Positions 15,188-17,968 of a stretch of DNA of 41,698 bases are shown in pieces; position 1 is the stretch's first letter; each line of letters starts with the position of its first letter. The DNA comes from Phycisphaerales bacterium (GTDB taxonomy: Bacteria; Planctomycetota; Phycisphaerae; UBA1845; G020352895), in the NCBI GenBank assembly GCA_020352895.1, contig CP070685.1, positions 2,545,276 to 2,586,973 of the forward strand. Direction: 5' to 3'. Position numbers and translations under genes: made by a program. The notes beneath the pieces were generated by a model, which saw nothing but the letters and a program-made list of their open reading frames with translations, ran no database searches and was not told where the DNA came from.

Positions 15188-16063
15188 CTACAAGGGATTG
15201 TCGATCCCGGCGCGTCGGTCGCGATCGCGCTGGCGCTTGGTGGCCTCTGACAGGAACTTCTTCTCACGCCCGCTGAGCGAGTCGACGCCCATCTCGTGCA
15301 CCTTGCGCAGAATGCGGTCCATCTCCTCCTGCTCGCTGCGCCGGGCCTGCTGCTTCTTCTCAAACGTGGTGTGCTGCCGTAGGAGCCGGTAATTCTGCCA
15401 GAATCGCTGGCCGTACAGCGGCCAGAGCACACCGAAGGCCAGCCCGGCCAGATGAGCCGCGTCCCCGCCGGCGTTCGCACCACGCGTCAGAATGTTCAGC
15501 ACGTAGATCGCCGTGAACAGGACGGCCGCGAAGCGGATCGGTACCGGGAATATGAACAGGATGAGCTGAAAATGCGGGAACAACACGGCGCACGCGCCGA
15601 GGACGGCCAGGACGCAGCCGCTCGCCCCGACCATGACCCCGTCCGGCAGAAAGCTGACGCCGACCAGCACAACATAGAACAGCGATCCCAATGTGCCCCC
15701 GGCCGTGTAGAACCAGAAGAATCGCTTTCCGCCCCAGTGTCGCTCCAGCGGCGGTCCCAGAAAGTAGATCCCCAACATATTCAGCAGGATATGCCAGATG
15801 TATCCGACGTCATGCAGGTATTGGTAGGTGACAAGTCGCCAGATCTGGCCATGGAGAATGAGTTCGACGTTCATGAAGCCCCAATAGAGAAGGGGACTCT
15901 TGTCTCTCCCGGTTATGATGACCAGCACGAAGACGGCGAAGTTGGCGATCAGCAGCCCCTTGACGACGGGGGTGGGCCTCGGCAGGCCGATGGTCATTCC
16001 GCCGCTGCGGTAGGGCCCCTCCGGACCGGACGAATATGGACGGTCCCCCCAACCCATCAGCAC
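15188..16063 (-). CDS. Rhomboid-family intramembrane serine protease
   Basis: A 291-residue membrane protease with about six transmembrane segments. WRLVTYQYLHDVGYIWHILLNMLGIYFLGP (about 75-104; H-x3-N oxyanion pair) is the rhomboid TM2 region. GASG at 147-150 gives the catalytic Ser149, and GGDAAHLAGLAFG gives His204. After the last membrane helix a charged helical tail (about 225-291, EEMDRILRKVHEMGVDSL ... REKKFLSEATKR) matches the small domain often found behind planctomycete rhomboids (DUF6576-like). Substrate unknown. It overlaps the upstream Nudix gene by seven bases, so the two are coupled. Confidence 0.93.
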   Translation of the reverse strand: MLMGWGDRPYSSGPEGPYRSGGMTIGLPRPTPVVKGLLIANFAVFVLVIITGRDKSPLLYWGFMNVELILHGQIWRLVTYQYLHDVGYIWHILLNMLGIYFLGPPLERHWGGKRFFWFYTAGGTLGSLFYVVLVGVSFLPDGVMVGASGCVLAVLGACAVLFPHFQLILFIFPVPIRFAAVLFTAIYVLNILTRGANAGGDAAHLAGLAFGVLWPLYGQRFWQNYRLLRQHTTFEKKQQARRSEQEEMDRILRKVHEMGVDSLSGREKKFLSEATKRQRDRDRRAGIDNPL

Positions 16064-16572
16064 CGCCTCCCCAACAGATCGAACATCATCAACGTGATCA
16101 GCGTCTTGCCGTCCTCGATGCGACGTTCACGAATCATATCCATGGCCTCGTCCAGGGTCGTGAAGACCGGGGCGATCCGCTCGCCGGCTTCCAGCTTCTG
16201 CCCCACTTCGGTGAGGTCCTCGGCCACAAAAGCATAGAGCTTCTCCGTCAGGATTCCGGGGGAGGGAAAGAACTCGCACAACCTGCTGATGCGGCCGCAG
16301 CGATACCCGGTCTCTTCCTCCAGCTCGCGACGGGCACAAGTCTCGGCGTCCTCGTTCGCGTCAAGCTTGCCCGCGGGCAGCTCCAGCAACTCCCGATCCA
16401 CAGCTTCTCGTACGTTGCGAATGAGAATAATCCTCTCGGAGTCGAGCCGAGGCAGCACCACGGCCGCGCCGGGGTGTACCACGATCTGGCGCTTGCGCTC
16501 GCCCCCGTGACGATCGGAAACCGTGATCTCGTCCACCCGGAAGAAGCTCGCGGTCAGCAGAGTATGCCTCAT
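16057..16572 (-). CDS. Nudix hydrolase, ADP-ribose pyrophosphatase type
   Basis: A 171-residue protein with a complete Nudix box at residues 68-90 (G68-x5-E-x7-R-E-L-E-E-E-T-G-Y), which coordinates Mg for cleaving nucleoside diphosphate derivatives. The 'LLELPAGK' lead-in and the downstream 'FFPSPGILTEKLYAFVAEDL' are typical of ADP-ribose pyrophosphatases. An in-frame GTG at 16590 is an alternative start. ATG 16572 was chosen because a ten-codon upstream ORF ends one base before it. The gene overlaps the rhomboid gene by seven bases and is divergent from dxr. Confidence 0.9.
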   Translation of the reverse strand: MRHTLLTASFFRVDEITVSDRHGGERKRQIVVHPGAAVVLPRLDSERIILIRNVREAVDRELLELPAGKLDANEDAETCARRELEEETGYRCGRISRLCEFFPSPGILTEKLYAFVAEDLTEVGQKLEAGERIAPVFTTLDEAMDMIRERRIEDGKTLITLMMFDLLGRRC

Positions 16573-16573
16573 G

Positions 16574-16606
16574 TTAAGAACGTCCGCCACATGGCCGCTG
16601 AGTCAT
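16574..16606 (-). CDS. Possible ten-residue leader peptide of the Nudix gene
   Basis: ATG at 16606 opens a frame encoding MTQRPCGGRS and a TAA stop. The stop is followed by a single base and then the Nudix ATG (TAA-C-ATG). A perfect TATAAT lies exactly seven bases before this ATG, so a leaderless transcript would begin with the mini-ORF, and a terminating ribosome would be positioned to start the Nudix gene, which has no Shine-Dalgarno sequence of its own. The geometry is visible; translation of the peptide is inference. Confidence 0.4.
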   Translation of the reverse strand: MTQRPCGGRS

Positions 16607-16613
16607 CGGCGCG

Positions 16614-16642
16614 ATTATAAAACGGCTCTGGCAGACCAACAA
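16614..16642 (-). promoter_or_regulatory. Promoter of the Nudix-rhomboid pair
   Basis: On the minus strand TTGTTG (16642-16637), a 17-base spacer and a perfect TATAAT (16619-16614). The box ends seven bases before the ATG of the putative leader peptide. Confidence 0.6.
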
Positions 16643-16707
16643 CGACGGCGCCGGCGTCGCCGGCACGGACGTCGCGGCTGCATGGCAAGGCGGCTAGCGC
16701 CTCAACC

Positions 16708-16736
16708 TTGCAGATGGGCCAATAGCGGTCTATAGT
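16708..16736 (+). promoter_or_regulatory. dxr promoter
   Basis: TTGCAG (16708-16713), a 17-base spacer and TATAGT (16731-16736), the latter five of six to consensus. The predicted start near 16743 leaves a leader of about 65 bases before dxr. It lies back to back with the Nudix promoter. Confidence 0.55.
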
Positions 16737-16807
16737 TGGGCTTTTCCGGTCTCACCATCGCTTGGCCGGTTCACCCTCGGCGAACAGGCAGCAGGATCGT
16801 CATACGT

Positions 16808-17968
16808 ATGGCCAGAGGCGTAGCCATTCTGGGGTCAACCGGGTCGATCGGTCGATCCGCCTTGGACGTGATCGATGGGCTGGCGGGAGCGTATCGCGTC
16901 GTGGCTCTCGTGGCCGGGTCCGGGTGGGAATTGCTGGCCCAACAGGCCGAGCGTTATCGTCCGGCCGTCGTCGGTTTGGCCGACACCGAGCATGTGGGCG
17001 ATCTTCGTGCTGCTCTGGGATCGGCCGCAGAGGTCCTGGCCGGCCCCCGCGCTCTCGAGAATGTCGCAGCCCATCCGGACGCCGATGTGGTCATCAACGC
17101 CGTCGTGGGCGCCGCCGGGCTGCCTGCAACGGTGGCCGCCGCCGAAGCAGGCAAGACCATCGCCCTGGCTAACAAGGAGTCGATGGTGGCCGCGGGGGCC
17201 ATCATCATGCCGATCGTCCGGCGCAGCGGCTCGTCCCTGTTGCCTATCGATAGCGAGCATTCGGCCGTATTCCAGGCCCTGCGTTCCGGCCACCGCGCGG
17301 AGGTGCGTAAAATCTATTTGACCGCCTCGGGAGGTCCGTTCCGTTCCTGGTCGGCGGAGCGAATGGCCGCCGCGACGCTGGAGGACGCCCTGAATCATCC
17401 CACCTGGGACATGGGGCGCAAGATCACGGTGGATTCGGCCACGATGATGAACAAGGCCCTGGAGATCGTTGAGGCGCACTGGCTGTTCGACATCAGCCCG
17501 GACGACATCGAGGTGGTGGTGCATCCCGAGTCCATCGTGCACGGCATGGTGGAATTCTGTGACGGTTCGCTGATCGCCCAGTTGGGCGCTCCGGACATGC
17601 GAACGCCGATCCAGTACGCCCTGACCTACCCATATCGCAAGCCCTGTTGCAGCCGATGGCTGGACCTTGCCGGCATGGGACAACTGACCCTTGAGCGACC
17701 CGATCCGCAGCGGTTCCCCGCTCTGGACCTGGGCTATCAGGCGGCCCGTCGCGGCGGGACGGCCGGGGCGGTGCTTAACGCGGCCAACGAGGCCGCCGTG
17801 GAAGAATTCTGCGAGGGGCGACTCGCCTTCACTGACATCACCAGGATCAGCGCCGAAGTCCTGAACAAGCACGAGACGATCGAGGCTCCTACGCTTCAGG
17901 ATGTCATGGCGGCCGACCGCTGGGCGCGCAACGAGGTTTCTGCATGCTTGCGGACTATCCAGTCCTGA
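16808..17968 (+). CDS. dxr: 1-deoxy-D-xylulose 5-phosphate reductoisomerase
   Basis: A 386-residue enzyme of the MEP isoprenoid pathway that converts DXP to 2-C-methylerythritol 4-phosphate with NADPH. MARGVAILGSTGSIGRSALDV carries the NADPH loop (residues 9-15). Also visible are ANKESMVAAGAII, the metal/substrate segment LPIDSEHSAVFQAL, TASGGPFRSWSAE and DMGRKITVDSATMMNKALEI. ATG 16808 is chosen because it gives the normal N-terminus and length; upstream in-frame starts lie in the leader. It overlaps the RseP-like gene by 25 bases, the common dxr-rseP pairing of isoprenoid and envelope-maintenance genes. Confidence 0.97.
   Translation: MARGVAILGSTGSIGRSALDVIDGLAGAYRVVALVAGSGWELLAQQAERYRPAVVGLADTEHVGDLRAALGSAAEVLAGPRALENVAAHPDADVVINAVVGAAGLPATVAAAEAGKTIALANKESMVAAGAIIMPIVRRSGSSLLPIDSEHSAVFQALRSGHRAEVRKIYLTASGGPFRSWSAERMAAATLEDALNHPTWDMGRKITVDSATMMNKALEIVEAHWLFDISPDDIEVVVHPESIVHGMVEFCDGSLIAQLGAPDMRTPIQYALTYPYRKPCCSRWLDLAGMGQLTLERPDPQRFPALDLGYQAARRGGTAGAVLNAANEAAVEEFCEGRLAFTDITRISAEVLNKHETIEAPTLQDVMAADRWARNEVSACLRTIQS

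Follow-up and report, generated by a model that had tools for sequence, protein, structure and literature searches.

A ten-codon reading frame at the predicted transcription start of a planctomycete Nudix hydrolase gene is probably a lineage-specific by-product of its promoter

The DNA analysed here is a stretch of 41,698 nucleotides (the whole of it is called the window in the following) from a Phycisphaerales bacterium, whose 3.60-Mb genome is available as a single contig with a completeness score of 67%. Besides a gene for a Nudix hydrolase it contains, in 3' direction, a gene of the rhomboid family and then dapB. The Nudix domain passes its profile cut-off (PF00293, 58.6 bits against 21.1) and the Nudix box is visible in the protein sequence as GKLDANEDAETCARRELEEETGY, while the protein stays under the cut-off for specific subfamilies (e.g., TIGR00052 with 70.4 against 79.55). 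Direct reading shows that the Nudix stop and the rhomboid start overlap in a TGATG (16055-16059, minus strand) preceded by GGGGAGG, which makes this overlap a standard candidate for translational coupling. Judged by the sequence adjoining the Nudix gene, the Nudix-rhomboid pair seems to be retained in relatives. Coordinates are collected in Table 1.

Table 1. Features at and around the start of the Nudix gene (window coordinates).
Feature	Position	Strand	Basis and remarks
-35-like element TTGTTG	16637..16642	-	Read directly from the sequence
-10 element TATAAT	16614..16619	-	Read directly from the sequence
Predicted transcription start (G or A, 6-7 bases past the -10 element)	16606..16607	-	Inferred from the usual -10 to +1 spacing
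Mini-ORF MTQRPCGGRS-stop	16574..16606	-	Read directly; absent from 65 other orthologous promoters
Alternative in-frame GTG start of the Nudix gene, within the mini-ORF	16588..16590	-	ORF list
Nudix hydrolase gene, 171 aa	16057..16572	-	PF00293, E 8.8e-16; start aligned with relatives
Rhomboid-family gene	15188..16057	-	PF01694, E 7.9e-25; ATG overlaps the Nudix stop

The promoter of the Nudix gene, on the minus strand, consists of TTGTTG and TATAAT with a spacer of 17 bases, as the original prediction had claimed. Its -35-like element matches the consensus TTGACA at three of six positions only and therefore a strict promoter scan has no entry here. Relatives help to judge this weak element. 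Of 70 genomes in the order, 66 (among them the window's own) show a TATAAT-like box a short way 5' of the Nudix start (five or more of the six positions matching, at a distance of up to about 115 bases). This conservation is partly built in because the boxes were picked for their similarity to TATAAT. The -35 signal was not selected in this way, and alignment of the 66 promoters on their boxes reveals TTG at -23 to -21 with frequencies of 0.56, 0.58 and 0.58, i.e. with the same 17-base spacer and layout as in the window. Also the gap between box and Nudix start is similar (41 bases here, median 45 in relatives). By these comparisons the promoter is well supported as more than a chance resemblance, and its weak -35 element is backed by the related promoters. 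Just upstream of it a GC-rich hairpin (16648-16666, minus strand) is listed as terminator-like, its tail having no clean T run.

Seven bases (CGCGCCG) separate TATAAT from an ATG that opens a mini-ORF with the codons ATG-ACT-CAG-CGG-CCA-TGT-GGC-GGA-CGT-TCT-TAA, and a single C at 16573 separates its stop from the Nudix ATG at 16572 (TAA-C-ATG). Both the ten-codon ORF and its stop one base before the Nudix gene were thus read as previously described. The -10 element is placed so that the predicted +1 falls on the ATG, which is the arrangement of a leaderless uORF, and the Nudix leader would be about 34 nt long. Relatives' start codons, set by alignment, correspond to the ATG at 16572, the in-frame GTG at 16590 being a possible alternative with a computed anti-SD pairing of only -1.7 kcal/mol. 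The 16S tail of the host is canonical (GGATCACCTCCTTTCT). A weak GGCGGA ten bases 5' of the Nudix ATG pairs with -4.8 kcal/mol (computed) and ranks 44th of the 70 orthologues, so that this weak ribosome site is ordinary for the gene and no special feature of the locus. The original prediction, according to which the Nudix gene lacks its own ribosome-binding site, was thus partly right: a site is present, but it is weak.

The mini-ORF itself is found only here. None of the 65 other orthologous promoters, which belong to six other families of the order (best Nudix protein identity about 54%), shows an ATG 5-8 bases past the box that opens a short ORF ending at the Nudix start. Nor is the linkage between a short ORF and the Nudix start kept at these loci. 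At the level of the order, the relatives thus keep the promoter and lack the mini-ORF, and the suggestion that it serves as a device delivering ribosomes to the Nudix gene finds no support in them. This is an outcome that the original prediction had itself named as refuting it. Conservation via other start codons was considered and rejected; the GTG-initiated short ORFs that some relatives have close to the -10 box (L007, L010, L019, L022 and L115) differ in length, frame and end, the closest analogue being L010 with a GTG, 19 codons and a stop overlapping a TTG start. Several relatives carry an in-frame Nudix start near the box in place of a short ORF; an ATG or GTG 5-8 bases past the box lies in the Nudix frame in six of them (L016, L112, L122, L130, L131 and L211), and in the others with such a codon it is out of frame and opens ORFs of variable length and end. 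The likely Nudix start (ATG or GTG) of L112, L130, L131 and L211 stands in frame 6 bases after the -10 box. Judged from this position, the Nudix gene may be leaderless in these four relatives.

How often such an arrangement would arise by chance can be estimated. By composition about 4.4% of promoters are expected to have an ATG at offsets 5-8 after the -10 box. When ATGs were planted at these offsets in relatives, 20 of 232 yielded an ORF ending at most 4 bases from the Nudix start. Together this gives about 0.4% of promoters, so that a genome possessing a thousand or more promoters should contain several arrangements of this kind. The positions of start and stop of the mini-ORF therefore fit chance. 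Within its own genome, 7 of 20 short ORFs at leaderless positions with a downstream gene end within 4 bases of its start, which is more than in other reading frames (2/30, p = 0.02) and no significant excess over planted starts (42/167, p = 0.22). Since an excess is suggested under one null model and not under the other, we do not claim that coupled leaderless ORFs form a class across this genome. At L162, L179, L194, L231, L242 and L276 of this genome, further short ORFs (11-46 codons) open at a distance of 5-8 bases from a -10-like box and end at most 4 bases from the downstream start, several of them with a 4-base overlap.

Leaderless initiation, in turn, seems to be common in this organism. 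Pattern searches in its genome gave 28 occurrences of TATAAT-N5-9-ATG, compared with 2 of the reversed control, and 14 of TATAAT-N15-19-ATG, compared with 2; TACAAT-N5-8-ATG (28 against 7) and TAGAAT-N5-8-ATG (19 against 7) behave similarly, whereas versions with TATACT or with GTG are hardly or not at all in excess, except for TAGAAT-GTG (17 against 8). Long frames (at least 60 codons) are opened at 18 of 27 distinct TATAAT sites, including those for cytidylate kinase, a phosphoribosyltransferase, a methylguanine methyltransferase, a GNAT acetyltransferase and a class II tRNA synthetase. Besides the pattern searches a 400-kb spread sample of the genome was used, on which a home-made gene caller that under-calls genes gives rough counts. 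Long recognisable genes begin 6-9 bases past TATAAT at L158, L161, L165, L169, L170, L177, L180, L181 and L182. These patterns suggest that leaderless mRNAs are widespread in this Phycisphaerales-like organism and make the leaderless initiation assumed by the original prediction plausible here, with two thirds of the sites opening long frames. With so many leaderless-type genes a 5'-terminal AUG is plausibly read in this organism. An earlier study flagged Planctomycetes, on the basis of one species, for a small number of SD genes and for signals that may be leaderless or of S1 type (PMC5397173).

The leader does not fold better than its shuffled versions (z = 1.2), and a search of window positions 15500-17500 against Rfam found no match, so a known RNA element at this locus was rejected as a candidate. 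Inside the leader neither a listed terminator-like site nor an attenuator-type alternative terminator or start-masking structure was found. With an unremarkable fold and a negative Rfam search there is no sign of a hidden Nudix start that a ribosome would have to open. These results bear on the proposal that the mini-ORF is a leader peptide that senses arginine, cysteine or glycine and attenuates the operon. Codons for arginine (two), cysteine (one) and glycine (two) are indeed present, but the peptide MTQRPCGGRS has no amino-acid bias and no codon is repeated in a run, and the genes that follow (Nudix, rhomboid and dapB) fit no such pathway. As also the mini-ORF is not conserved and no attenuator-like structure accompanies it, sensing can hardly be credited and this part of the original prediction was abandoned.

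In our opinion the locus probably represents an ordinary promoter of the Nudix-rhomboid pair, and the mini-ORF a lineage-specific by-product of it that is neither a conserved coupler nor a sensor. This reading is preferred because the promoter occurs almost throughout the order and the mini-ORF only here, because about 0.4% of promoters are expected to carry such an arrangement by chance, because ribosome site, box-to-start gap and fold are ordinary, and because leaderless-type genes are common in this genome. Transcription would begin with the first A of the mini-ORF or with the base preceding it, and the AUG of the mini-ORF would then lie at the 5' end of the mRNA, open to leaderless initiation. 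According to this scenario the coincidence with the 5' end arose by chance and the mini-ORF may be translated to some degree. Ribosomes finishing the ten codons would halt one base before the Nudix AUG, where some may reinitiate, while others would initiate there directly, as they would in relatives whose ribosome sites are just as weak. Reinitiation of this passive kind may occur at the Nudix AUG, while a selected role for initiation or reinitiation of the mini-ORF is not supported. Two facts count against the by-product reading, namely that all compared relatives come from other families and share at most about 54% protein identity, which leaves room for selection within the lineage, and that coupled-type short ORFs are more frequent in this genome than the other frames would predict (7/20 against 2/30, p = 0.02), though not more than planted starts would (p = 0.22).

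It is unlikely that the mini-ORF is a functional leaderless coupler whose 5' AUG loads the ribosomes, which after termination at the TAA and reinitiation would account for most Nudix translation. The geometry of promoter, start and stop next to a weak ribosome site would fit, leaderless-type genes are frequent in the genome, which contains a weak hint of a coupled short-ORF class, and coupled leaderless small ORFs are known from mycobacteria (PMC4633059). Nevertheless, the orthologous promoters do without it, weak ribosome sites are usual for this Nudix gene where no mini-ORF exists, and chance accounts for the arrangement. A generalised version, in which Phycisphaerales-like planctomycetes use leaderless short ORFs as ribosome loaders for genes with weak sites and the Nudix mini-ORF counts among several such ORFs of this genome (together with the six short ORFs mentioned above), appears quite improbable.

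The opposite extreme, that the mini-ORF is not translated since transcription starts a few bases off or its AUG is unused, with the Nudix gene initiated directly at ATG 16572 or GTG 16590, would agree with a transcription start that is itself inferred and with similar leaders in many orthologues that have no mini-ORF. We regard it as distinctly improbable, because organisms with active leaderless translation usually read an AUG that lies no more than one or two bases from +1, and signs of such translation are present in this genome. Still more doubtful is a past or present role of ATG 16606 as leaderless start of an N-terminally extended Nudix protein, whose frame was shifted by an indel during evolution or sequencing. 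Six relatives carry a start at this distance in the Nudix frame, the two frames lie here one base apart, and a sequencing indel stays conceivable because the assembly is incomplete by its score of 67%. However, runs of identical bases between the two ATGs never exceed two, the adjacent genes are intact and the extensions of the relatives vary in length.

As a single locus the mini-ORF has little importance. Of wider interest is that a GC-rich planctomycete genome seems to begin many genes at or beside the transcription start, so that start positions assigned by standard gene callers could be wrong and short leaderless ORFs could be overlooked. Mycobacteria possess hundreds of leaderless short ORFs, some of which end at the start of the next gene above expectation, with the linkage retained while the sequence drifts (PMC4633059). 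With those described by Shell et al. 2015 (PMC4633059) the Nudix mini-ORF shares a predicted 5'-terminal ATG, a length of 5-50 codons, a position directly 5' of a gene with a stop adjoining the start, and an unconserved peptide sequence. The mycobacterial ORFs are backed by transcript 5' ends and ribosome profiling, whereas the Nudix mini-ORF is known from its sequence alone; in some cases their linkage is kept between two species, while that of the mini-ORF is absent in relatives. In their terms it would be a uORF, because 'coupled' denotes an RTGA overlap of stop and start, which is absent at the TAA-C-ATG with its stop one base upstream. Termination-reinitiation at closely spaced genes (PMC6728339) is comparable in the nearly adjacent stop and start, but there the overlapping codons belong to two full genes, and an SD motif located within the first of them is often important; at the present locus this motif is weak. 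Cysteine-responsive attenuator ORFs of mycobacteria (PMC4633059, PMC9094748) are likewise leaderless short ORFs before an operon, yet their Cys codons are clustered and conserved and their genes are related to sulphur, in contrast with the one unconserved Cys codon found here. A later study of Mycobacterium tuberculosis concludes that a good part of leaderless short-ORF translation is spurious, as chance suffices to supply the sequence features it requires (PMC9094748). The Nudix mini-ORF is similar in that it probably has these features by chance at a promoter and shows no sign of selection, although translation was measured there by ribosome profiling and is predicted here. The Nudix mini-ORF is best described as a predicted member of the mycobacterial type of leaderless short ORFs, and if coupling by such ORFs proved true in this genome, a mycobacterial phenomenon would be extended to another phylum.
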